Of a DNA stretch of 35,330 nucleotides, positions 387 to 24,357 are shown piece by piece. The first letter of the stretch is position 1. Every line of letters begins with the position of its first letter. A program made the position numbers and the translations under genes. This DNA comes from Caldifarciminota bacterium (lineage in GTDB: Bacteria; Hydrothermota; Hydrothermia; LBFQ01; DSFT01): positions 1 through 35,330 of the forward strand of contig JALSOK010000094.1 in NCBI GenBank assembly GCA_026986535.1, in the 5' to 3' direction. Below the pieces are notes generated by a model. It was not told where the DNA came from. It ran no database searches and was given only the letters and a program-made list of their open reading frames with translations.

Positions 387-392
387 TAAAAT
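387..392 (+). promoter_or_regulatory. -10-like hexamer TAAAAT of the riboswitch transcript
   Basis: TAAAAT 8 nt upstream of the first base of riboswitch P1 (401). Confidence 0.55.
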
Positions 393-400
393 TTTCACTG

Positions 401-503
401 CCACACCGGGGGAGCTGGGGGCAACCCGGCTGAGAGTCCCGCTGGAGCGCGCGGGAGACCCCTCGAACCTGATCCGGGTAATACCGGCGCAGGGAAGGTG
501 TGG
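401..503 (+). promoter_or_regulatory. TPP (THI-box) riboswitch aptamer
   Basis: Conserved THI core: GGGGAGC...GGCTGAGAG...GACCCCTCGAACCTGATCCGGGTAATACCGGCGCAGGGA, closed by a perfect 7-bp P1: CCACACC (401-407) / GGTGTGG (497-503). Confidence 0.96.
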
Positions 504-573
504 GAGAAAAAATCTCCTCACCCTCTCTGTTCCACCCGCTGGTTCCCCCGGCAAAACGAGAAGGAGGTAAGCC

Positions 574-2676
574 ATGCTGGCCATAATGCTCATTGCAGGC
601 GATACCCTTCCCCGATACACCCTGCCCGAGGAGGTGGTGGTGGGGAAGGCGGAGAAGGAAACGCCGGTCTCCTATACGGAGATCGATACGGCGCGGATAG
701 GGGAAGTTTACAACTTTCAGGATGTTCCCAATCTCCTGAGGCAGATTCCCGGAGTGTTCGTCTATTCGGATGCGGGAAATGGCCTCAACTACAACTATAT
801 GTCGATAAGGGGCTTTTCCCAGAAGTACATATCCGTTCTCATCAACGATATTCCCACCGACGATGTGGAGAGCCACGACATCTACTGGATAGATTATCCG
901 GACATTCTGTCCTCCACCACATTCATACAGTTCCAGAGGGGGGTGGGAAGCATTCCATACGGATACTCTGCAATTGCGGGTGCCATCAATCTCGTTGGAT
1001 TTCCCTTCAGCGATGAGAGGAAGATAAGGATATACGGGGGATACGGCAGTTTCAAAACATACAGGCTCACAATGGATTATTCCTCCGGGTGGGTGGGAAG
1101 CTGGAACTTCTATACCAGGCTTTCGAAACTTAAGACGGATGGGTACAGGGAGAAATCCTGGAGTGACATGGGAAGTTATTATGTGGCTCTCCAGCACAGG
1201 GGAATGACTTCCAGAACGACCCTCGTTCTTCATGGGGGAAACGAGTACACACACCTGGCCTACTATGGAATCGATACCGCCACCCTGCGGACGAACCGCA
1301 GGTACAATCCCCTTCAGTACGATGGGGAAACGGATCTGTTCTTCAGGCCCCACTATGAACTGCACCAGGAGAATTTCATAGGGGATAACCTGTATGTGAA
1401 GAATACGCTTTACGCCATAATCGGCAGGGGAAGATTCAGGCAGTTGAGGAATGGAGAGTGGCGGGAGTACTTCAGGGAATACTGGGACAGGCCCGAAGGA
1501 GAGACCCCCTTTGATCTGATAAGGGAGAGGTGGGTGGATGAGAAGGATTTCGGGTATCTTCCCAGGATACTCTATACGCGCGGAGGCCTCACCCTTACGG
1601 CGGGTTCGGAGTTCCGCTTCCATACGGGGGACCACTGGGGCACCGTCGTCTGGGCCGATAACTGGCCCACAGATATTCCCATGGATACTGCGGATTACCG
1701 CTATTACTCCTACACCCTTGACAAGTATATTCTCTCTCCATTTGTGCACCTGGAACACGAAGTGAGGCCCGGGGTCACGCTTATGCTGGGTCTTCAGGTA
1801 CAGATGGCCAGCTATAGATTCCACAACGATATCGTCAGGAATTTGAGATGGAGTGCGGATTATGTCTTCCCCTCGCCCCGAGTCGGTCTGAGCTTTAGAA
1901 CCGGACCCAATTCCTACCTTTTCGTAAATTATTCGATGAACCACAGGGAGCCCGGAACCAGAGACATATACGATGCCCAGTATCCCTACTGGAACGACCC
2001 CGTCTACGATTTCGAATCGTGCGAAGCGCGGGCAGATGCCCTGGTTTGCTCCAGTCCTCGAAAGCTTCCCGAGGATGTCAGGGATGTGGAACTGGGATAC
2101 AGGTTCGACGATGGAAGATGGCGCCTGGACCTCAATCTATACAACATGGACTTTACCAATGCCCTGGTATATGGTGGTTCTCTGGTGGATGGAGTGCCAA
2201 TTCTGACCAATGCGGGGAGGACCCGTCACAGGGGTGTGGAATTCTACCTGCATACCCCTTCATTCAGGGGCCTGAGGTTCTATGCTTCCCTTTCCCTCTC
2301 GGATAACAGGTATGTGAAGTTCTCAGGGAGCGACTGGAATGGTCCGTTCGACTATTCCGGGAACATCATCGCCTTCTTCCCATCCTACACCGGATATGCT
2401 GCAGCGGAATACCGCCGGGACAGGTGGAGCCTCTACGCAGAGGGAATATTCGTGGGTTCCCGTTACATAGATCCGGAGAATACCTATGCCCTTCCTCCGT
2501 ATCAGGTTGTGAATCTCTACTTTAATTATGCTCTCAGGTCCGGTATAACTCTCCGCCTTCAGGTTAACAATCTCCTGAACGAAATTTATGAGCCCTTCGG
2601 TGTGAAGGACGGGGAGCCCTATCTGATTCCCGCCGCCACCCGCAACTTCTTCGTGGGTGTGGAATCGGTGTTCTGA
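574..2676 (+). CDS. TonB-dependent outer-membrane receptor, probable thiamin/thiamin-precursor transporter
   Basis: Plug-domain motif (VPNLLRQIPGVFVYSDAGNGLNYNYMSIRGFSQKYISVLINDIP..GVGSIPYGYSAIAGAINLVG), C-terminal barrel ending aromatic ..FFVGVESVF; SD AGGAGG and TPP riboswitch upstream. Confidence 0.92.
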   Translation: MLAIMLIAGDTLPRYTLPEEVVVGKAEKETPVSYTEIDTARIGEVYNFQDVPNLLRQIPGVFVYSDAGNGLNYNYMSIRGFSQKYISVLINDIPTDDVESHDIYWIDYPDILSSTTFIQFQRGVGSIPYGYSAIAGAINLVGFPFSDERKIRIYGGYGSFKTYRLTMDYSSGWVGSWNFYTRLSKLKTDGYREKSWSDMGSYYVALQHRGMTSRTTLVLHGGNEYTHLAYYGIDTATLRTNRRYNPLQYDGETDLFFRPHYELHQENFIGDNLYVKNTLYAIIGRGRFRQLRNGEWREYFREYWDRPEGETPFDLIRERWVDEKDFGYLPRILYTRGGLTLTAGSEFRFHTGDHWGTVVWADNWPTDIPMDTADYRYYSYTLDKYILSPFVHLEHEVRPGVTLMLGLQVQMASYRFHNDIVRNLRWSADYVFPSPRVGLSFRTGPNSYLFVNYSMNHREPGTRDIYDAQYPYWNDPVYDFESCEARADALVCSSPRKLPEDVRDVELGYRFDDGRWRLDLNLYNMDFTNALVYGGSLVDGVPILTNAGRTRHRGVEFYLHTPSFRGLRFYASLSLSDNRYVKFSGSDWNGPFDYSGNIIAFFPSYTGYAAAEYRRDRWSLYAEGIFVGSRYIDPENTYALPPYQVVNLYFNYALRSGITLRLQVNNLLNEIYEPFGVKDGEPYLIPAATRNFFVGVESVF

Positions 2677-3063: not shown

Positions 3064-3083
3064 GGGCGGTGGATTCACCGCCC
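3064..3083 (-). terminator. Stop-codon-proximal hairpin
   Basis: GGGCGGTG-GATT-CACCGCCC on + (8 bp, 4-nt loop) overlapping the last base of the minus-strand TAG; no U-tract. Confidence 0.55.
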
Positions 3084-3775
3084 TATCTCACGATGAGCTT
3101 CCCCGACATCTTTAATTCGTCCGAAGAGATCCGGTAGATATACACTCCCGAAGGCAAATCGATTCTCTCATGATTTTTAGTAATTTCTCTGCTGAGAATC
3201 AGTTTTCCCCTCCCGTCGAATATCAGCATGCTGGCAGTCCCCGCAAGCTGTACGGGAATGAACAGCCGGCCCCCATCGGACACTATATCCACGCTCCCTA
3301 TGGCGGGTCCGCTTCCGGAGTCCACCTCCCTGGAATTCAGGGAATAGGTGGTCTCGTAGATGTACAGAGCGCTGTCCGTCCTCACCACTATATCGATGTA
3401 CTGGTCCCCATCGTAATTGGTGGGGTAAAGATAACCCGAGTTGCTGTAGTTGAAGAGGGGAGAGGTGTATACAGGACTGGTCAGGTCCTCGTATATTCTA
3501 AACTGCATCTGGCCATCGCTGTAGTTGTAGTAGTACAGAAGTACGGTCCGGTATGCAATCCGGTAAAGGACGATGTTATATCCGGCGGGGGCCCTGTACC
3601 CGGCTATGGGGGTGGAGGAGAGGCCGTCGTATATGACCACAGAGTCGTTTCCGTAGAAGGCGTATGCGTCCAGCACCCCATCCCCGGAAAAGTCCGAAGT
3701 AATACCCACCCATGAGGCTCCCGGGTAATCGTTCTGGGCGATGAGATTCACCTGCGTAAAAATCATCCATACCAT
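3083..3775 (-). CDS. Secreted repeat protein with C-terminal T9SS type-A sorting-like domain
   Basis: FG-GAP/VCBS-like D-x-D-G repeats (SDFSGDGVLDAY, YDGDQYIDIV) and C-terminus ..MLIFDGRGKLILSREITKNHERIDLPSGVYIYRISSDELKMSGKLIVR; SD present. Confidence 0.8.
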   Translation of the reverse strand: MVWMIFTQVNLIAQNDYPGASWVGITSDFSGDGVLDAYAFYGNDSVVIYDGLSSTPIAGYRAPAGYNIVLYRIAYRTVLLYYYNYSDGQMQFRIYEDLTSPVYTSPLFNYSNSGYLYPTNYDGDQYIDIVVRTDSALYIYETTYSLNSREVDSGSGPAIGSVDIVSDGGRLFIPVQLAGTASMLIFDGRGKLILSREITKNHERIDLPSGVYIYRISSDELKMSGKLIVR

Positions 3776-3826
3776 GGATATTCCCTCCTGCTCTTTTCGA
3801 AAGGGCCGAATAGTTTAAGGGGGAGG

Positions 3827-3843
3827 GAGGGGCACAGCCCCTC
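3827..3843 (-). terminator. Stop-codon-overlapping hairpin at the end of the suf operon
   Basis: + GAGGGGC-ACA-GCCCCTC; overlaps the TGA of sufD; no U-tract. Confidence 0.5.
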
Positions 3844-5053
3844 ATTTCCATTTTTCCTCTATGAGATTTACGAGCCTTTCTTTCGCTTCCTTTATGGGTA
3901 TCTTCTCTATTGCGAATTCGAAGAAGCCCATGACCAGCATTTTTCGGGCATCATCGTGGGGAACGCCCCTGCTCTGCAGGTAGAAGATTTTCTCCTCTTC
4001 CAGCTCTCCCACTGTTGCCGAGTGGGTGCACCGGACATCGTTGGCTTCTATCTCGAGGCCCGGAATGGCGTCGCTGCGGGCACCCGGATTGAGGAGAATG
4101 GTGTGCTCCTCGAGGAATGCGTTGGATCTCTGGGCGCCGTGGTATATCCTTATGAGTCCGTCGAATATACTGTGGGCCCTGTCTTTCAGAGCCCCTCTCA
4201 CCAGAACATTCCCCCGGCTGTCGCCGGACCTGTGCAGGAGGCGGGTGGTCAGGAAGTGGGTCTGATGATCCCTTCCGAAGAAGATCTGGGTATCCTCTCC
4301 CTCTGCTCCGGGGGCGTCCATCAGCAGTTCCATGTGGTTTGTGTTCACCCTGCCCCCGATCCAGCCGTGGTTGATGTCTATATAGGCGTTGCGGCCAACG
4401 ACCCCCCTCTTCCTCCCGTAGGAGAGCACATTTTCGTTCATGTTGAATATGGATGAGAAGTACACGCGGGCCTCATCCAGAGCGAATATCTCCACGACGG
4501 GATTGAAGAATCCGGAATGCTCCTCATCTATGGAGAAGGCCTCTTCCAGGTATGTGAATCGGGATGACCTGTCCGCCAGTATTATGATGTGGGGGTGCAT
4601 GGAGGCTTTATCGGAAGAGTGAATATAGAGCACATGAAAAGGCTTTTCCACTCTTGCTCCTGGTGCTATGTGTATCAAAATGGCTTCCTCAAGAACGGAA
4701 TAGTGGTATGCTGTGAACCTGTCTGAAGTGGGGCTCACTGCCTTCGAAAAATACTTCCTGAAGTTTTCGTTCTTATCTGCATCCCTTATATCGTAGATGC
4801 TTATACCATCGTCCAGTATGCGAAAGTGGGTCATTACATTATCGATGAAAACGATAAATCCCGAGACATTCTCTTTACTTATTCGGGATTCGGCATCTTC
4901 CACGGGAGTGTAGGCATCAAGAGAGAACTGCTCCGGCTTAATGAGGTCCAGGTTTATGTACTTGTTGCGGGGTGCCGGAGCCCCTTTGTAAAATTCCCGG
5001 GCCTCCTCTTTTATCTCCATGAACCACCGGGGAAGGGCAGTTATTCCTTTCAT
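3842..5053 (-). CDS. sufD: Fe-S cluster assembly protein SufD
   Basis: SufB/SufD family sequence (..IHIAPGARVEKPFHVLYIHSS.., ..DARKMLVMGFFEFAIEKIP), directly downstream of sufB, SD AGGAGG. Confidence 0.9.
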   Translation of the reverse strand: MKGITALPRWFMEIKEEAREFYKGAPAPRNKYINLDLIKPEQFSLDAYTPVEDAESRISKENVSGFIVFIDNVMTHFRILDDGISIYDIRDADKNENFRKYFSKAVSPTSDRFTAYHYSVLEEAILIHIAPGARVEKPFHVLYIHSSDKASMHPHIIILADRSSRFTYLEEAFSIDEEHSGFFNPVVEIFALDEARVYFSSIFNMNENVLSYGRKRGVVGRNAYIDINHGWIGGRVNTNHMELLMDAPGAEGEDTQIFFGRDHQTHFLTTRLLHRSGDSRGNVLVRGALKDRAHSIFDGLIRIYHGAQRSNAFLEEHTILLNPGARSDAIPGLEIEANDVRCTHSATVGELEEEKIFYLQSRGVPHDDARKMLVMGFFEFAIEKIPIKEAKERLVNLIEEKWK

Positions 5054-5065
5054 ACTTTTCCTCCT

Positions 5066-6481
5066 CTATCCAACGCTTCCTTCCATCTCGAGCTCTATGA
5101 GCCTGTTGAGCTCAATGGCGTATTCCATCGGCAATTCCTTGGAAAGGGGCTCTATGAATCCCATGACTATGAGGGTTGTGGCTTCCTGCTCTGTAAGGCC
5201 CCTGCTCATGAGGTAGAACACCTGGTCCTCTCCAATTTTGCCCACCTTCGCCTCGTGGGCGATGTTGACCCTGTCGGCTTCGATTTCTATGTAGGGGTAT
5301 GTGTTGCTGACCGAGTCCTCATCCATTATCAGGGCGTCGCATGACACTGATATGCGGGCCCTCTCGGCATCCGGAAGGACCTTGACCAGTCCCCTGTAGG
5401 TGCTTATGCCCCCACCCTTCGATATGGATTTGGAGGTAATGGTGGCCCTGCAGTCCGGAGCCATGATTATGACTTTCCCTCCCGTATCGTGGTGCATTCC
5501 GGTGTTGGCGAAGCTCATGGACAGGATGTCGGTCCTCGCGCCCCTTCCCCTGAGTATGGAGGAGGGATACTTCATGTTCCTTCCGCTTCCCAGCTCACCG
5601 GAGATCCACTCCATGAAACCCCTCTCCTCCACCACGGCCCTCTTGGTGACCAGGTTCAGGACATTTCTGGACCAGTTCTGTATGGTGGTATATCTGACAT
5701 GGGCACCCTTCTTCACTATGACCTCCACCACTGCGGCGTGGAGGGTGTGGGTGTCGTATATGGGGGCTGTGCACCCTTCTATGTAATGGACGAACGAATC
5801 CTCCTCAGCGATTATGAGGGTCCTCTCGAACTGTCCGAGGTTCTGAAGATTTATGCGGAAGTACGCCTGTAGAGGGATGTCCACCTTTACACCCTTCGGA
5901 ACATATACGAAGGTTCCACCGGACCACACTGCCGTGTTGAGGGCGGCAAATTTATTATCGGATGGAGGGACCACCGTGCCGAAGTACTTTCTGACCAGCT
6001 CGGGATATCTCTTCAGCGCCTCGTCCATGGACATGAAGAGGATACCCTTCTCTTCCAGCTCCTTCCTCATGCGGGAATATACCACCTCGGAGTCGTACTG
6101 GGCTTCCACCCCTCCCAGGTATTTCCTCTCGGCTTCGGGTATTCCCAGCCTCTCGTATGTCCTTCTTATATACTCGGGCACTTCATCCCAGGAGTCGGCC
6201 ACTTTTCTCGTGGGTCTTGCGTAATACACGATGCTGTCGAAGTCGATGTCGTCCAGTTTAACTCCCCAGGTGGGCATGGGCTTTTCCAGGAAGATCCTGT
6301 AGGCTTTCAGGCGGATTTCGGTCATCCATTCGGGCTCCCCCTTCAGTCTGGATATGAGTTTGATCTTCTCTTCGTCGAGCCCGGGCTCGCTAACGAAATC
6401 GTAAACGGCGTCTTCATCTTTGAATCCATACTTGCTGTAATCGAAATCCAGAAGGGCTTCCTGTTCCTTCCTGTCCGCCAT
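5066..6481 (-). CDS. sufB: Fe-S cluster assembly scaffold SufB
   Basis: SufB signature regions ([59 protein letters not shown]). Confidence 0.96.
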
Positions 6482-6482
6482 A

Positions 6483-7241
6483 TCACACCTCCTCGGCTAC
6501 GCCGTAGCGGGCATAACCTTCCTTTTCCAGAGTCTCTGCCAGTTCGGGTCCCCCTTCCTCCACTATCCTTCCGTCCACCATGACATGCACATAATCCGGA
6601 ACGATGTAGTTGAGGATTCTCTGGTAGTGGGTTATGAGGATGACCCCCATCCCGGTCTCCTGTTTAATCCTCTTTACATTCTCCGCCACTATGCGGACCG
6701 CATCGATGTCCAGCCCCGAATCTATCTCGTCCAGGATTGCAATCTCGGGCTTCAGAATGGCCATCTGGACTATTTCAGCCCTCTTCTTCTCCCCTCCGGA
6801 GAATCCCACATTCAGGTACCTGTCGGTCATATTCTCAGGAAGTCCCAGATTCTTCAGCCACTGGCGGAGCTCCTTCCTGAACTTTATTATGTCGGGCTTC
6901 CTGCCGTTTCCGAACCTGTGGGAATAGGCCTGCCAGAGGAAGGTGGAGAATCGGACCCCGTCTATCTCCAGTGGATGCTGAAACGCAAGGAACAGCCCTG
7001 CCTGTGCCCTCTCGTGGGGTTCCATGTCCAGCAGGTTCCTGTCGTTGAATATCACCTCACCCCCGTACACTTCATAGGAGGGATGTCCCATTATGACCAG
7101 TCCCAGCGTCGATTTTCCCGAACCGTTGGGCCCCATTATGGCATGTATTTCCCCCTTTCTAACCGTAAGATTAATTCCCCTGAGTATTTCCTTTCCCTCT
7201 ATCCCTGCCTTCAGGTCCCTTATTACCAGCGTGTCCTTCAT
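6483..7241 (-). CDS. sufC: Fe-S cluster assembly ATPase SufC
   Basis: ABC ATPase with Walker [10 protein letters not shown], signature FSGGEKKR, Walker [12 protein letters not shown], as in SufC. Confidence 0.96.
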
Positions 7242-7439: not shown

Positions 7440-9131
7440 ATGCTGACCTTTCTGATATTTAACCTTAAGATGCTGGAAGCCATCAATATCGTGGATTACA
7501 TGATGGCCGATTATCCACTGGCCATCCGGGACTCTTTCGAGTGGGAAGAGATGAGGGAATTCTCCCGGCGGTTGAGGGAGCTCATCCCCCACAATAGGAC
7601 TCTGGCGGATTCCCTGATACTTCTGGTGGACAGGAGGGCCGATACGAATGCGGTTCGCGGCATCCTGGAGAATATCAGAAGGGGGTTGATATCGGAGTCG
7701 AATCTGAGGATGTTCCCCGATGGGGTGGTGTCGCTGGAAAGGGGAAAGGACCTCTATGCGAGGGAATGTGCGGTCTGCCACGGCCACAGGGGGGATGGAA
7801 GGGGAACGGTGAGGGGCCTCGATCCGCCCCCTGCCAGTTTTGTGGAGAGGGATGACCTTTCACCATTTCGGGTTTATACTGTGCTCCACTTCGGTGCGGC
7901 GGGAATGCCTGCATTTCATCACCTGAGCGACGGGGATAAGTGGGATGTCGCGTTCTATGTGCTGTCGCTCCGCCACGAGGGTCTGCCCGGAGACACCTTC
8001 TACCTGCCCCTGGAATTGGCTTCCGTGTGGAGCGACCGGTACATGAGCAAAATGGGTATAGAAAAGGGGGAAGTGGCTTTTATAAGGCATAATCCCGGCA
8101 CCGGAGATACTCTATCCCTGATATTGAATACCCTGGATCTCATTGAACGGACCGCCCGCTCGGGGAACTTTACGGATGCTTTATCTATACTCAATGGCCT
8201 CTACGCCCGGTATATAGAGCCCGTGGAGAAGAGGATGACAGATGCCGGCCGCATGGAGATGGATGTAATGAGGCTCAGGCGGGCTCTGGAGGAGGGGAGG
8301 ACTGAGCGTGTGGGCAGACTTGTGGCCTCCCTTAAGGAGCACTTTCTGTCCGATGAAGGAGATTCCCCCTGGCATGCCCTTATTGGATCTTTCGTTATCC
8401 TGTTTCGGGAGGGACTGGAGGCCATCCTGGTCATCGCAATCATGCTTTCCGTTGCCTCCATATATGGAAATCGGAGGGTCGTGGGGGCTGTGCATGCGGG
8501 GTGGGCAGTTGCCATACTCTCCGGATTCATCACCTGGGGGATCTTCAGGAAGGTGCTTTCTGGACTGCCTGTTTATGGTGAAATTCTGGAGGGCCTGACC
8601 TCCTTTGTGGCGGCGGCAATTCTTCTGTATATAGCCCTGTGGTTCTCATCCGGGGCTGTGGAGAATATCAGGAGGAAGATGAAGGAGGCCAGCCAGCGCC
8701 GGGCGTGGATCGGTGCTTTCGCCCTTTCATTTCTTGTGGTCTACAGGGAGGCATTCGAAACTGTCCTCTTCTATTCTGCCCTCTACGAATCCGCCGACAG
8801 GGGCGGAGTTATAGGGGGATTTCTGATGGGCTTGATAACCATCATCCTTCTGGGCATCGCGGTATTCCACCTGCACAGGCGCCTGCCCCTAAGGCAGATA
8901 TTTACCGTTACTTCCTGGATGCTCCTTGCCCTTGCGGTGGTGTTCATCGGGAAGGGAATAAGGGAGATTCAGGAAGTGGGCATGCTTCCCGTTCACTTTC
9001 TGGATTATGCCCCCCACATAGACCTTCTGGGCATATATCCGACCCTCGAGGGACTCGTTTCGCAGGGCGCAGTGGCTCTCTTGTCCATTTATTTGATAGC
9101 GAGGAGGCTGAGGTTATCGGAGGATTCCTGA
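7440..9131 (+). CDS. Cytochrome c-FTR1 family iron permease fusion
   Basis: N-terminal heme motif CAVCH (ECAVCHGHRGDGRG); two RExxE motifs (REGLEAIL, REAFETVLF) typical of FTR1; multiple TM helices; SD GGAGG. Confidence 0.92.
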   Translation: MLTFLIFNLKMLEAINIVDYMMADYPLAIRDSFEWEEMREFSRRLRELIPHNRTLADSLILLVDRRADTNAVRGILENIRRGLISESNLRMFPDGVVSLERGKDLYARECAVCHGHRGDGRGTVRGLDPPPASFVERDDLSPFRVYTVLHFGAAGMPAFHHLSDGDKWDVAFYVLSLRHEGLPGDTFYLPLELASVWSDRYMSKMGIEKGEVAFIRHNPGTGDTLSLILNTLDLIERTARSGNFTDALSILNGLYARYIEPVEKRMTDAGRMEMDVMRLRRALEEGRTERVGRLVASLKEHFLSDEGDSPWHALIGSFVILFREGLEAILVIAIMLSVASIYGNRRVVGAVHAGWAVAILSGFITWGIFRKVLSGLPVYGEILEGLTSFVAAAILLYIALWFSSGAVENIRRKMKEASQRRAWIGAFALSFLVVYREAFETVLFYSALYESADRGGVIGGFLMGLITIILLGIAVFHLHRRLPLRQIFTVTSWMLLALAVVFIGKGIREIQEVGMLPVHFLDYAPHIDLLGIYPTLEGLVSQGAVALLSIYLIARRLRLSEDS

Positions 9132-12576: not shown

Positions 12577-15321
12577 ATGCTCCTTCCGATACTCTTTGCC
12601 TCTTCGGGACCGGTTTATGTGGACGACCGCGTTCTTGAATGTGTGGAGCAGGGGGACAGTGTCTGCATTCTGTCGTACGATTATGTTTTGAAGGCCCCGA
12701 AACTACTGGAGAGGGGTCTCGTGGATTCGGCCCGAACCCTCCTGTGGAAGGGCTATGCTCTGGTGAGGAATAGGGGAGATTTACCCCTGTGGAGGGCCTA
12801 CACTCTGGCCCTCTATATGGCCTTTCTGGGCAATGAGCTCATGTGGTTCGATGCCGGTGCGATGGACAGGGCGGACAGGAGGGCATACATGGACACCCTC
12901 CTGGCCACAGCCCGCGGCAGTCCCCTTTCCCTGTATGCGCGAGTCATTTACAATAGCATTGCGGTTCAGCTGGATGCCGTGCCCGGAGATAAATACAAGA
13001 CACTTTTAGGGCGTGGTGTTCAGAATGTTCTATTTCACGAGGAAATGCCAGTTGCCTTTGTAGGGATGAACACTCTGATGGATACCACCCCTCTCACCTA
13101 TGTATTAATTTTTGGATGGGTGGAGTTGGATTCCGTTTATCTGAACCGCGTAAGGCCCTATCTGAACCATTCGGACCCCACGATAAGGGCCCTGGCCATG
13201 AAGAAGGTTGCCCAGTACTATTCAGAGCACAATATGCCCATTCTCGGATTCCGCTACATATCGATGCTGGACTCCACTGCTTCCACCCTGAGGAGCCCCT
13301 TCGTTCGGGTTGGGCTGTACCTTACGCTGAGCTATTACTTTAACTATGTAAATCCCCGGAGGGCGGGCTCCTATTATGCCCGGAGGCTTTATGAAATACT
13401 GGATTCCCTCCACAGATACGCCGGGGTATCGGGTTTGCTGTGGCTCTATGGACTGAACGAGTATGGTATTTCTGCTCCGGATGATTCTGTGGGGCTGAGG
13501 GTTCTCAGGAGGGCTCTGGCGGCCCACATGGAGCACTACGGCCTCTATAGTGATCACACGGCCAATGTTATGGCCAATCTGTCGAGAAGATTCTTACATC
13601 TGGGTGTGCTGGACAGCACCGCCTATTACATAAAGAGGGTTATAGATGTAAGACGGAAACTGCGGGGGGATGACCTGTATGTATTTGGCGAGCGCATGGG
13701 CCTGGCCTGGCTGTACCTGTACGCGGGGGACAGCGCGAGGGCCCGTTCTGTGGCAAGGGAGGCTTTGGATAGGCTTAATCTCGATTCAGACTATTTACCT
13801 GTTCCAGTTTATATATACTTTACGAGAATTTCTTACGCGTACGAGATTCTGGGTAAAATGGACTCTGCGTTGCTCTGGATGAGGGCCCTGGTGGATTCTG
13901 CTCCCGATAATATCTCCTTCAGGATAACTCTCGCACGCCTTCAGGTTCTGACCGGGGATACGGCAGGCGCCGCCGCCAGTCTGGATAGCGCATTTCTATA
14001 TGTCCGCTCCGGAAGGATTTCGAGCGTTATGGGGGCCACGCGGGGCCTTTACGGTAAACTCCTCCGGGTGTGGACGGAAAACATCCCTTACTTTCTCGGA
14101 GCGGGTCTGGATGGCAGGGTAGCCCTATACAGCGAACTTTTGAAGGGCCGCTCCCTTCTGGAAGAAATGGATCTATCTAAGGACAGGGTGGTGGATTCCC
14201 TCATCAGACTGCTCAATTTCTATGCGGATATGAATATGCCCCTGGACAGTCTCATCGCTCTGGAGAGGAGAGTTCACGAATATGTGGAGAGAAAGAAGCT
14301 TTCCTTCATATCGGAAAATGCACCCCATCTGCCGCGGGGGACTGCACTGCTGGGTTATGTGGTGGGCAGAAAATACCTTTTAGAATACCTGGTTTCTCCT
14401 GAAGAGACCGTCGTGGTGCTCAGGAGGGCATCGAGGGATAGTCTCGAGAGTATGGTAAACGGGCTTTTATCGGCGCCGGGTTTCAGTAGAGCTGTATCCG
14501 AAAGATTGTGGAGGATCCTCATAGAGCCCTTCGACACCCTGCTCCGGAAGTACCGGAGGGTGGCCATCTCTCCCCACGGTATTCTGACCCGTATGCCCTT
14601 CTCCATCCTCCACGACGGGAGAAGTTATCTGGTGGAGGCACCGTATTCCATCTACAGGGTATTTTCCCTCTGGAGCTTTGCCCTTCCATGCGGGGTAAGG
14701 GGGCCCGCGCTGGCGCTGGGCCGGAACGATTACGGTTATAATGTGGTCCTTTCCAGAAGGAACATAGGAAATCTCCGTTATGCGGAGGATGAAGCGAGGG
14801 CTGTTGTGGAGAAGGTCGGAGGTGTTGCTCTGGTGGGGGAGGAAGTATCGGAGGAGAAGCTGTATCATATTCCTCTGAGGGAATACCCCATACTCCACTT
14901 TGCCACTCATGCAATAGTGGATTCCTCCAGCATGATCATCCTGGGTCCCCCCGGTGATACAGTTCCGTCGAGGGATAACCTTCTGCGTGTGGGTGAAATC
15001 TATTCCCGGATGAGGGTAGGAAGTCTCATAGTTCTGAGCGGTTGCAGGACCGGAATGGGCAGGTTGATAAACGACTGGGAGGGCATCTTCAACCTGACCC
15101 GCAGCTTCATATACACCGGCGGAAGATGCATAATCACCACCATGTGGGACCTGAGCGACGCCGCCTCCTATCTGCTCATGGAAAAGATGTACGGGTACCT
15201 GTCGGACGGGGACCCTGTGGATATGGCCCTGAAGAGAGCCCGGCTCTACCTCTTGAGGAACACAGGCATGGACTCCCCTCTCTTCTGGGGGGCCTTCGTT
15301 CTGACTGTGTACGGCAGGTAA
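12577..15321 (+). CDS. TPR-containing CHAT-domain (caspase-like) protein
   Basis: C-terminal CHAT catalytic motifs His (ILHFATHAIVD) and Cys (IVLSGCRTGMG), GGRCIITTMWDLSD; helical repeat-rich N-terminal part. Confidence 0.9.
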   Translation: MLLPILFASSGPVYVDDRVLECVEQGDSVCILSYDYVLKAPKLLERGLVDSARTLLWKGYALVRNRGDLPLWRAYTLALYMAFLGNELMWFDAGAMDRADRRAYMDTLLATARGSPLSLYARVIYNSIAVQLDAVPGDKYKTLLGRGVQNVLFHEEMPVAFVGMNTLMDTTPLTYVLIFGWVELDSVYLNRVRPYLNHSDPTIRALAMKKVAQYYSEHNMPILGFRYISMLDSTASTLRSPFVRVGLYLTLSYYFNYVNPRRAGSYYARRLYEILDSLHRYAGVSGLLWLYGLNEYGISAPDDSVGLRVLRRALAAHMEHYGLYSDHTANVMANLSRRFLHLGVLDSTAYYIKRVIDVRRKLRGDDLYVFGERMGLAWLYLYAGDSARARSVAREALDRLNLDSDYLPVPVYIYFTRISYAYEILGKMDSALLWMRALVDSAPDNISFRITLARLQVLTGDTAGAAASLDSAFLYVRSGRISSVMGATRGLYGKLLRVWTENIPYFLGAGLDGRVALYSELLKGRSLLEEMDLSKDRVVDSLIRLLNFYADMNMPLDSLIALERRVHEYVERKKLSFISENAPHLPRGTALLGYVVGRKYLLEYLVSPEETVVVLRRASRDSLESMVNGLLSAPGFSRAVSERLWRILIEPFDTLLRKYRRVAISPHGILTRMPFSILHDGRSYLVEAPYSIYRVFSLWSFALPCGVRGPALALGRNDYGYNVVLSRRNIGNLRYAEDEARAVVEKVGGVALVGEEVSEEKLYHIPLREYPILHFATHAIVDSSSMIILGPPGDTVPSRDNLLRVGEIYSRMRVGSLIVLSGCRTGMGRLINDWEGIFNLTRSFIYTGGRCIITTMWDLSDAASYLLMEKMYGYLSDGDPVDMALKRARLYLLRNTGMDSPLFWGAFVLTVYGR

Positions 15322-20863: not shown

Positions 20864-22165
20864 ATGGATGTGGTGGAGATCCTTACCAGTCTGATAGGTT
20901 TCAGGACAGTGAATCCCCCTGGAGATGAAGAGGAGGCAGTGCTCTGGATCAGGGACCTGTTTGAGAGGGAGGGGCTGGAGGGGGAGATATACGCCCTGGA
21001 TTCGAGGAGGCCCAATCTGCTGGTCCGCATTCCGGGAAAGAAAGGGGGAAAGCCCCTTCTGGTTTATGGGCATGTGGATGTGGTTCCCGTGGAGGGGCAG
21101 CAGTGGGATGTGGATCCCTTTGCGGGAGCAGTGAAGGATGGATATGTGTGGGGCAGGGGGGCTCTGGACATGAAGGGGCCCCTCGCAATATATCTGGCTT
21201 CCCTTCTGGAGACTTACAGGGAGGGCAGTCTTGCAGGGGATGTCATCTTCCTTGCCCTCAGCGATGAGGAGGGGGGAGGAGATTACGGTGCCCGCTATAT
21301 GGTGGAAAATCATCCCGAACTGTTCGATGGTGTGGAGTACGCGATAGGGGAATTCGGTGGTTTCAGCTTCGAGGTGATGGGAAGAAGGCTGTATCCGGTT
21401 ATGGTGGCTGAAAAGCAGATATGCTGGCTTAAACTCACCTTCGAGGGAAGGGGAGGACACGGTTCCCTGATGCACAGGGATACCGCAATGGAAAAGGTGG
21501 GAAGGGCCCTGGTTTCTCTGCACAGGGGGCGCTTACCCGTCCACATAACCCCCGCCGTCAGGCGGATGTTCCTCTCCATGGCCGACGCCCTCCCTTTTCC
21601 CGCTTCCCTTTTGATGAGGGCGCTTCTCATACCATCCATTACGGATGGACTTCTGTCCCTTCTGGGGGAGAGGATGGAGGTATTCAGACCCCTTTTCCAC
21701 AACACTGCCAGCCCCACCATCATCAGGGGCGGGAGCAAGGTGAATGTGGTGCCCTCCAGGGTGGAACTGGAGGTGGATGGGAGGCTTCTGCCCGGATTCA
21801 CCCCCGACCGGTTCATACGGGAGCTTGAGGACCTACTGGGTGTTCCATTCGAGGCCCGGGTCCTCAGGTACGATCCCTATCCGGACGATGTGGACTGGCG
21901 GCTTATGGGTGCGCTGGAAGAGGCGATAGGGATGGAGGATGGAGGGGGGCGGGTTATCCCCATGCTTCTGACGGGGGTCACGGATGGCAGGTTCTTTAAG
22001 AGGCTGGGGATACAGACCTATGGATTCGCCCCCATGAAGCTCCCCGCGCATTTCCCCTTCGGGGATTATATCCACGCCGAAAACGAACGGATACCCGTGG
22101 AAGCCCTGCACTTCGGTGTCAGGGTGATGAAGCATTTCTTCTCGAGGGGGGCGTGGACCCTTTAG
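20864..22165 (+). CDS. M20 family metallopeptidase (ArgE/DapE/ACY1-like)
   Basis: YGHVDVVPVEGQQWDVDPFAGAVKDGYVWGRGALDMKGPLA, LALSDEEGGGDYGARYM, GRGGHGS. Confidence 0.93.
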   Translation: MDVVEILTSLIGFRTVNPPGDEEEAVLWIRDLFEREGLEGEIYALDSRRPNLLVRIPGKKGGKPLLVYGHVDVVPVEGQQWDVDPFAGAVKDGYVWGRGALDMKGPLAIYLASLLETYREGSLAGDVIFLALSDEEGGGDYGARYMVENHPELFDGVEYAIGEFGGFSFEVMGRRLYPVMVAEKQICWLKLTFEGRGGHGSLMHRDTAMEKVGRALVSLHRGRLPVHITPAVRRMFLSMADALPFPASLLMRALLIPSITDGLLSLLGERMEVFRPLFHNTASPTIIRGGSKVNVVPSRVELEVDGRLLPGFTPDRFIRELEDLLGVPFEARVLRYDPYPDDVDWRLMGALEEAIGMEDGGGRVIPMLLTGVTDGRFFKRLGIQTYGFAPMKLPAHFPFGDYIHAENERIPVEALHFGVRVMKHFFSRGAWTL

Positions 22166-22174
22166 AAGGGGTCC
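22155..22174 (+). terminator. Inverted repeat over the overlapping stop codons of convergent genes
   Basis: GGACCC (22155-22160) ... GGGTCC (22169-22174); stops TAG 22163-22165 (+) and TAA 22162-22164 (-) overlap. Confidence 0.4.
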
Positions 22175-23007
22175 CGGACCAGACCCTCCACCTTTTCCTT
22201 CAGGAACTGGGGCAGTGCAAAGGCTCCCCTGTATATGCTTCTGTTAAAGTACCTCAATCCTGCGGGAATTTTCTGCCTCTCTCTTATCTCCAGCCCCCTA
22301 GTTGCCAGGGAGAATGCCCAGAATCCCCCCGGATATGTGGGAATGGGGGCCGTGTACATGTGCAGAATGGGAAAGATTCTGGAGAGCCTCAGTGCTATGG
22401 TTTCGATGGTGTCGAGATGATAGTAAGGGGATTCGGACTGTATGACCATAATCCCCCCGTCCCTGAGCGAGCGGAATACATTCCTGAAGAAGTCCTGGCC
22501 TATGAGGCCCTCGGCCGGTCCTATGGGGTCGGTGGAATCCACCACTACCACATCGAATTCCCCCTCGTGCCCCTTTATCCATTCTGTCGCGTCTTCCACA
22601 TGTATATGGAGCCTCTCGTCGTTCAGAGCGGATGAAATGGTGGGAAGGTACCTGCGGGAGGCCTCTATTACCATCCTGTCTATTTCCACCATGTGGACCT
22701 CTTCCACGGGGTACCTCAGCACTTCCCTCGCGGTTCCCCCATCCCCTCCGCCCACTATAAGGATTCTCCGGGGGGAGGGATGGGATATCATAGCGGGGTG
22801 GACTAGCATCTCGTGGTATATGAATTCGTCCCTCTCCGTGGTCATTACGAGTCCGTCGAGGGTCAGGACCCTCCCGAAGAAGCCGTTCTCGAAGATTTCT
22901 ATCTCCTGATAGGGGCTCTTATGCCGGTACAGTACCCTCTCTTTCTTCAGGAATATGCCTGAATGGGGTGAGTGGTATTCCCTGTATTCTTCCCCTTGCT
23001 TTACCAT
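22162..23007 (-). CDS. speE: Spermidine synthase-type aminopropyltransferase (canonical)
   Basis: YHEMLVHPAM, ILIVGGGDGGTAREVLRYP, VVVDSTDPIGPAEGLIGQDFF. Confidence 0.92.
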   Translation of the reverse strand: MVKQGEEYREYHSPHSGIFLKKERVLYRHKSPYQEIEIFENGFFGRVLTLDGLVMTTERDEFIYHEMLVHPAMISHPSPRRILIVGGGDGGTAREVLRYPVEEVHMVEIDRMVIEASRRYLPTISSALNDERLHIHVEDATEWIKGHEGEFDVVVVDSTDPIGPAEGLIGQDFFRNVFRSLRDGGIMVIQSESPYYHLDTIETIALRLSRIFPILHMYTAPIPTYPGGFWAFSLATRGLEIRERQKIPAGLRYFNRSIYRGAFALPQFLKEKVEGLVRDPF

Positions 23008-23474
23008 AGGGCCACTCCGGCGAACACGCTCGTGGGTCCTTCTATAAGGGCACTGGCGGACTTTACGATGATTTCCCTGATGGCTATTCCCCTGTGCCTC
23101 ATGGCTTCTATCGCCATCTTCCTGACGATTTCCCTGGCCTTCTCCTCCGGAGTATATCCTGAGAATTCCATTATGACACCCACATGCTTCTCGTCCTGCG
23201 GAAGGGCGACCGAAACTGCGGCGGAAATCACCTCCCCTTTATCGGTGGAACTTATGGAGCCGTAGGCTATGGGGAGCAGGGAGCCCCTGGGGACCTCTAT
23301 GGTCTGGCTCACCCTCGCACCGGGGGGCACTATGCTCGACACCTTGAGCAGATTGTAATCCCCCACCCCTGCATTGCGCAGGGCCTGGTCGAAGGCGGTC
23401 AGGAGGGTCTCCCCCCTACCCACACCGGCGCAGATGTACAGGTGTTCAAGCTTTCCAAATAAAGGGTGCGTCAT
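23001..23474 (-). CDS. Pyruvoyl-dependent arginine decarboxylase
   Basis: CAGVGRGETLLTAFDQALRNAGVGDYNLLKVSSIVPPGA including the VSS self-cleavage site region; length 157 aa. Confidence 0.92.
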   Translation of the reverse strand: MTHPLFGKLEHLYICAGVGRGETLLTAFDQALRNAGVGDYNLLKVSSIVPPGARVSQTIEVPRGSLLPIAYGSISSTDKGEVISAAVSVALPQDEKHVGVIMEFSGYTPEEKAREIVRKMAIEAMRHRGIAIREIIVKSASALIEGPTSVFAGVALW

Positions 23475-24357
23475 CTTTGATTATATCCCCCTTTGTCTCG
23501 AGGGCCTCTTTCACATAGGTGGGAATAACGAAGGAAGCTGTGTGCATACGGGGATAGTAGTAGGAGAACCTGCTGGAGCCGATTTCTTTCATCCTCTCGA
23601 GCACCTTTTCTTCATCGATGGTCTCCGGGTTGAGTTTCTTGCTGGCTATTATAAAAGCCCAGGGCAGCTGGAAGGAAAAGATGAAGGTCCAGTAAACATG
23701 CACGATGGGAAATACTGCTTTGAGGGTCCTGTACAGGCTTGCCAGGAAATCGGGATAGACAGGGTCTGCGCTTCCGGCCTGTGCCACGAATATGCCGTCC
23801 TCCTTCAGCCTGTTGAAGATGGTGGTGTAGAATTCCTTGGTGAAGAGCTTTATGGAGGGGCCCTCCTCTATGGGCTCCGTTAAGTCGGAGATGATGATGT
23901 CGTATGGCTCGAAATTGTTTTCCACGAATTCCCTTGCGTCTGTGAATATCAGGCGGGAGCGGGGATTGTCGAATGCTCCATCGTGCCACTCCTTCATGTG
24001 CTGGCGACATATATTGACGAGCTCCTCGTCTATGTCCACCATAATGGCTTCCTTCACGCTTCTGTGCTTCAGGACTTCCCTCAGGGTTGCCCCTTCTCCT
24101 CCTCCCAGTATAAGGACCCTTTCGGGGGAGGGATGGGTGAACATGGCCGGGTGGACCAGCATCTCGTGGTAAATGTGCTCATCTATCTGGGCCGATTGAA
24201 TCTTGTTGTCCAGAAACAGGGTCTTGCCGAGAACCTCCAGGTCCACTATGTCCACCTTCTGGAACTTGGTTCGCCCGTGGTAGATTATTCTCTCCACCCG
24301 ATAGTGGAATATGAGGTCGTCCGTGTGCTTTTCTATAAACCAGATTCCTTCTTTCAT
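23446..24357 (-). CDS. Second aminopropyltransferase, thermospermine synthase-like
   Basis: YHEMLVHPAMFTHPSPERVLILGGGEGATLREVLKH; IIISDLTEPIEEGPSIKLFTKEFYTTIFNRLKEDGIFVAQAGS. Confidence 0.88.
   Translation of the reverse strand: MKEGIWFIEKHTDDLIFHYRVERIIYHGRTKFQKVDIVDLEVLGKTLFLDNKIQSAQIDEHIYHEMLVHPAMFTHPSPERVLILGGGEGATLREVLKHRSVKEAIMVDIDEELVNICRQHMKEWHDGAFDNPRSRLIFTDAREFVENNFEPYDIIISDLTEPIEEGPSIKLFTKEFYTTIFNRLKEDGIFVAQAGSADPVYPDFLASLYRTLKAVFPIVHVYWTFIFSFQLPWAFIIASKKLNPETIDEEKVLERMKEIGSSRFSYYYPRMHTASFVIPTYVKEALETKGDIIKDDAPFIWKA

Follow-up and report, generated by a model that had tools for sequence, protein, structure and literature searches.

The window, which is the whole stretch of DNA analysed (35,330 nt), contains a TPP riboswitch upstream of a TonB-dependent receptor gene, and the analyses make it probable that this element senses TPP and turns off translation of the mRNA for a receptor scavenging thiamin or thiamin phosphates in a thiamin-auxotrophic bacterium of candidate division WOR-3. 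The presence of the aptamer goes beyond chance, and so does, in the energy model, the coupling of P1 formation to the accessibility of the Shine–Dalgarno (SD) box. We infer TPP binding from the aptamer sequence and actual switching from the modelling, which supports the interpretation proposed in the initial annotation.

The aptamer and the downstream gene

An Rfam search of the whole window returned a single RNA family, RF00059, at 398–513 of the plus strand, with a score of 75.3 bits (gathering cut-off 54.3, E 2.8e-13) and an alignment spanning the full model (positions 1–105 of 105). The conserved pyrimidine- and pyrophosphate-binding core is present and aligned (CUGAGA; GAACCUGAUC; AGGGA). 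The TPP riboswitch recognized earlier by reading the sequence was thereby confirmed, and its start given at 387, about 11 nt upstream of that of the Rfam match, is an immaterial deviation. The aptamer at 398–513 was the only match in the 1.74-Mb host genome (96% complete, 160 contigs), where no further TPP riboswitch was detected. The host belongs to candidate division WOR-3, not to Bacteroidetes, and its nearest named relative is a metagenome-assembled WOR-3 genome. The elements of the locus are listed below.

398–513, plus strand: TPP riboswitch aptamer (RF00059), full length
401–407, plus strand: 5′ strand of P1, CCACACC; 403–407 are paired in the Rfam alignment, 401–402 lengthen P1
497–503, plus strand: 3′ strand of P1, GGTGTGG, doubling as the 5′ arm of the anti-P1 hairpin (sequence, Rfam alignment and folding)
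497–522, plus strand: anti-P1 hairpin of the predicted TPP-free state, 10 bp (probability 0.89 in the free ensemble)
513–518, plus strand: main predicted anti-SD, TCTCCT, with alternatives at 522–528 (pairs with 562–567 at 0.92 when P1 is forced)
541–552, plus strand: anti-aptamer segment GGTTCCCCCGGC, predicted to pair with the aptamer 5′ strand (approximately 406–417) in the TPP-free state
562–567, plus strand: SD-box AGGAGG, 6 nt 5′ of the ATG, read directly
574–2676, plus strand: regulated gene, TonB-dependent outer-membrane receptor of 700 aa (Pfam Plug E 6e-12, TonB_dep_Rec_b-barrel E 3e-26)

All coordinates and pairings proposed in the initial annotation, including the 7-bp P1, proved to be exact on direct reading. 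The start of the receptor gene is fixed at the ATG at 574 by an in-frame stop codon at 568–570. Both the Plug and the β-barrel domains of its product scored above the cut-off, which agrees with its earlier designation as a TonB receptor. The receptor and its relatives have a very short hydrophobic N-terminus (MLAIMLIAG, 574–600) without the basic residues usual in signal peptides. Genes for ExbD are present in the host genome.

Alternative pairings of the leader RNA

The alternative hairpin described for the 3′ strand of P1 is present exactly as predicted and consists of the pairings 497–500/519–522 and 502–507/513–518, with a bulged U501, one G-U pair among the 10 bp and an AAAAA loop at 508–512. 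It can be extended outward by pairing of the 3′ core of the aptamer (approximately 489–495) with CUCUCUG (approximately 524–530). Folding of the free state revealed a second anti-aptamer arm that the initial annotation had not named: GGTTCCCCCGGC at 541–552 has the aptamer 5′ strand CCGGGGGAGCTGG as its partner, and their complementarity exceeded that found in shuffled leaders (p = 0.008 at the host locus). Taken by themselves, the complementarity of the leader to the SD-box (p = 0.73) and that to the 3′ strand of P1 (p = 0.22) were at the level expected by chance from shuffled leaders. Since the SD/anti-SD match alone is not distinguishable from chance, the argument for a switch rests on the coupling of the pairings. 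An intrinsic terminator, that is, a GC hairpin followed by a U tract, was not found in the 280–700 region, as had been stated earlier, and terminator-based control was rejected on this ground.

Predicted switching of SD accessibility

To represent the bound state, P1 was constrained to form and TPP contributed no binding energy; the values given here are predictions of the energy model. When the 395–600 segment was folded with nothing forced, the anti-P1 hairpin predominated and the SD-box was unpaired with a probability of 0.56. Forcing of P1 eliminated the hairpin, brought 513–518 into pairing with the SD-box and lowered the unpaired probability of the latter to 0.02, which corresponds to the OFF switch anticipated for constrained folding. 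The contrast was maintained over 25 to 60°C. Only three of 1,000 dinucleotide-preserving leader shuffles reached the observed contrast; an SD-box at least half open in the free state occurred in 36 and one at most 5% open with P1 forced in 128 of the 1,000 shuffled leaders. The contrast weakened once the coding sequence included exceeded 50 nt and faded at about 150 nt added: the SD opening in the bound state was 0.02, 0.14, 0.16, and 0.48 with the 3′-end of the fold at 600, 640, 680, and 720, respectively. Thus, the contrast is taken to characterize the leader RNA.

In silico mutations changed the picture of the ON state. Mutation of 546–548 decreased the exposure of the free SD-box from 0.56 to 0.23, and 513–518 then paired with the SD-box even in the TPP-free fold, suggesting that the ON state is held by two helices. 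Consequently, the earlier ON/OFF model stands in the computation as far as the hairpin frees and P1 hides the SD-box, but it has to be completed by the 541–552/~406–417 helix. Mutation of 515–517 left the SD-box covered in the bound state, as other C-rich stretches of the leader took over. The proposed anti-SD at 513–518 is thus the main partner of the SD-box in the model, but it is not uniquely required, and a reporter test addressing 513–518 alone could mislead. The 541–552 arm is the statistically strongest part of the platform, recurs across the class and is required for the ON state in silico.

According to the proposed mechanism, the aptamer would be dismantled from both sides in the absence of TPP: the 3′ strand of P1 would enter the 497–522 hairpin, which would hide the anti-SD as well, and the 5′ P1/P2 strand would pair with 541–552, so that the SD-box would stay open and the receptor would be made. 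Upon TPP binding P1 would close and the 497–522 hairpin could not form; the C-rich leader, mainly 513–518, would then pair with the SD-box and translation would stop.

Conservation of the platform

The congeneric genome G001 encodes a receptor 86% identical to that of the host (G000), and its aptamer and leader are nearly unchanged up to position 552; the sequence preceding the aptamer can hardly be aligned. The aptamers differ in one base located in the P3 loop. Within 504–552 the two genomes agree in all paired parts, and the differences are confined to the hairpin loop (AAAAA in one congener and TTCTTC in the other), the stem being identical. As 123 of the 252 fourfold degenerate sites (49%) differ between the two receptor genes, the probability of finding 44 unchanged positions at this rate is about 1e-13.

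The MAFFT alignment of the four leaders of the family misaligned the platform past the aptamer, and the stems were compared by folding instead. The leaders of G002 and G003, which represent another genus of the same family, differ from that of the host, yet the anti-P1 hairpin is formed in both from other sequences. Their distal segment matches the aptamer 5′ strand (p = 0.002 each), and the anti-P1 3′ complementarity by itself was borderline in these two genomes only. The computed SD contrast was 0.69, 0.59, 0.55, and 0.79 in G000, G001, G002, and G003, respectively, the shuffled leaders averaging 0.02 to 0.08; it was reached by none of the 150 shuffles in G000, G002, and G003, and had p = 0.013 in G001. 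Thus, the same switch logic was computed for each of the family's four genomes. Of the four loci of the sister family f6, one showed a clear contrast and the other three a weak one.

On the scale of 16 genera, leaders were more complementary to the aptamer 5′ strand than their shuffles (9 of 16 genera below 0.05; Fisher p about 1e-9 for genus medians, a value only indicative because the genera are related). The complementarity to the 3′ strand of P1 or to the SD-box was not above shuffles in the same genera. In the 16 WOR-3 genera the leader from P1 to the start codon often contains a C-rich segment matching the invariant GGGGG(A/U)G of the aptamer 5′ strand. In two distant relatives (L022 and L028), a hairpin of the CAGG..CCTG type with a long U tract behind it was seen by eye after the aptamer; this arrangement looks like a terminator and stands before a THI4-like gene, which implies that the platform varies within the phylum.

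These data bear on two other explanations of the leader. The class-wide pattern would be accounted for if the 497–522 hairpin and the anti-SD were incidental to a real aptamer, the working competition being that between 541–552 and P1/P2, with the SD-box covered by any C-rich stretch; only the aptamer 5′ strand complementarity beats chance across the class, and the bound-state SD-box stayed covered after the 515–517 mutation. This arrangement seems unlikely, as the hairpin has been kept in all four family members despite its changed sequence and drifting loop. The composition of the leader (20 C and 4 G among the 37 bases of 513–549) would also suit a mechanism acting mainly by Rho-dependent termination, in which TPP exposes the C-rich, G-poor segment (approximately 513–550) as a Rho loading site or the mRNA, when left untranslated, is terminated within the coding region. 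The riboswitches of Escherichia coli thiM, thiC, and tbpA hide the SD-box and also exert control that is Rho-dependent or acts on the mRNA level (PMC11487190), and such additional effects may operate at the WOR-3 locus too. However, a pure Rho mechanism has no need for an SD contrast, which lies far above that of shuffled leaders in four genomes, and we regard it as somewhat less plausible still than an incidental hairpin. The translational switch with the two-armed ON state described above is the reading we prefer.

Linkage of the receptor to TPP riboswitches and its probable substrate

The receptor was searched in 40 genomes of the class and was found in the host and in six others. In five of these six (G001, G015, G024, G032, and G036) a riboswitch is located directly 5′ of the receptor gene, and in G003 the receptor is the last gene of a riboswitch-led THI4-ThiC-receptor run. 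Thus, in each of the seven genomes having it the receptor is tied to a TPP riboswitch, albeit as the third gene of a run in one. In other WOR-3 genomes without ThiC (loci L009, L013, L018, L019, and L030), the riboswitch stands before apparent ABC transporter or THI5/NMT1-like binding-protein genes, which were judged by their N-terminal sequence only and may represent an alternative uptake route.

ThiC, THI4, ThiE, ThiN, and thiamin pyrophosphokinase (TPK) were not detected in the host genome or in its congener G001; since the host genome is 96% complete and consists of 160 contigs, these absences are probable rather than certain. ThiC and THI4 are missing from six of the seven receptor-bearing genomes, G003 being the exception, and the residual THI4 matches are short, lie at the N-terminal end of the profile and are probably FAD-binding motifs. 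The genomes of family f6 carry thiamin pyrophosphokinase instead. ThiL is present in both the host and G001, and the host has a TPP-dependent 2-oxoacid:ferredoxin oxidoreductase (KorAB, named from sequence). By its gene content the host appears unable to make thiamin. The lack of detectable biosynthesis genes together with the presence of ThiL and a TPP enzyme points to scavenging as the probable role of the receptor, with thiamin or thiamin phosphates as a substrate deduced from the regulation and the pathway gaps. As ThiE, ThiN, and thiamin pyrophosphokinase were all undetected, the host genus may import TMP, which ThiL would convert to TPP, or TPP itself, provided that no thiamin kinase has escaped detection. 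We put forward only tentatively the combined proposal that WOR-3 TPP riboswitches share a platform principle, by which a C-rich leader segment pairs with the invariant GGGGG(A/U)G 5′ strand of the aptamer and strands are exchanged on either side of P1 in the ON state, and that the receptor of the host genus must import a phosphorylated form, TMP or TPP.

The best PDB and NCBIfam neighbours of the receptor are siderophore-type receptors such as FecA, and a SUF operon and an FTR1 iron permease are found nearby, as would be expected if the receptor imported a non-thiamin compound, such as an iron chelate, with its riboswitch reflecting an indirect metabolic link. Nevertheless, the FecA-type matches score far below the family cut-offs and stem from the barrel common to such receptors, and the linkage to TPP riboswitches in every receptor-bearing genome, most of them without ThiC and THI4, makes a substrate unrelated to thiamin quite improbable.

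Relation to known TPP-controlled systems

In E. coli tbpA (thiB) and thiM, an anti-P1 stem exposes the SD-box in the TPP-free state, and P1 formation upon TPP binding leads to SD sequestration (PMC11487190; PMC3280964). The WOR-3 locus resembles these in its RF00059 aptamer and in its computed platform, where an anti-P1 stem competes with P1 and the SD-box is sequestered when P1 forms and open otherwise. It differs from them by the second long-range helix of the predicted ON state (541–552/aptamer 5′ strand), by its lineage and by the gene controlled. Control of TonB receptors by TPP, quoted earlier as known from Bacteroidetes, is exemplified by OMthi (BT2390) of Bacteroides thetaiotaomicron, a TPP-riboswitch-controlled TonB-dependent receptor genetically implicated in thiamin uptake (PMC5613172); the likeness of the WOR-3 receptor to OMthi is drawn from regulation. 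Unlike the WOR-3 genome, which lacks detectable ThiC, THI4, ThiE, and TPK, Bacteroides is a thiamin producer with PnuT and a thiamin pyrophosphorylase. The same regulatory pairing extends beyond one phylum, as passages of two further papers describe omr/btuB-like receptors under THI elements in metagenomes (PMC2211319) and TonB-dependent receptors predicted to take up thiamin in marine bacteria (PMC3400609). Among the papers listed for WOR-3 in connection with thiamin or riboswitches, none contains the name WOR-3, and the relevant passages of PMC2211319 and PMC3400609 report no case from this lineage.

The expression platform and its lineage had been singled out as deserving attention. The lineage is indeed little studied, but the design is that known from E. 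coli tbpA and thiM, and with TPP-controlled TonB receptors also known, the locus represents a well-supported instance of a familiar type of control in another lineage. What is unusual is confined to the ON state with its two arms and to the phosphorylated form that may be the substrate. The results add candidate division WOR-3 to the lineages with outer-membrane uptake under TPP control and offer a conserved, predicted translational switch that is experimentally simple. Judging by the pathway pattern, some WOR-3 genera may depend on their neighbours for vitamin B1, and this pattern gives a testable prediction on the form of the vitamin taken up.

Other genes in the window

Downstream of the receptor, the minus strand contains a 64-aa ORF (MWKGFKKSRGPRIGNPIRR...) at 2702–2896, which has a good SD-box and no match in the relatives' loci compared. 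SufC-SufB-SufD and, after them, a gene with a weak match to a Por secretion tail lie on the same strand at 3083–7241. The FTR1 iron permease is encoded on the plus strand at 7440–9131, where it is fused to a cytochrome c domain. A 914-aa TPR-CHAT protein with a caspase-like peptidase architecture is encoded at 12577–15321 (plus strand), and two spermidine-synthase paralogues lie close together on the minus strand at 22162–24357.
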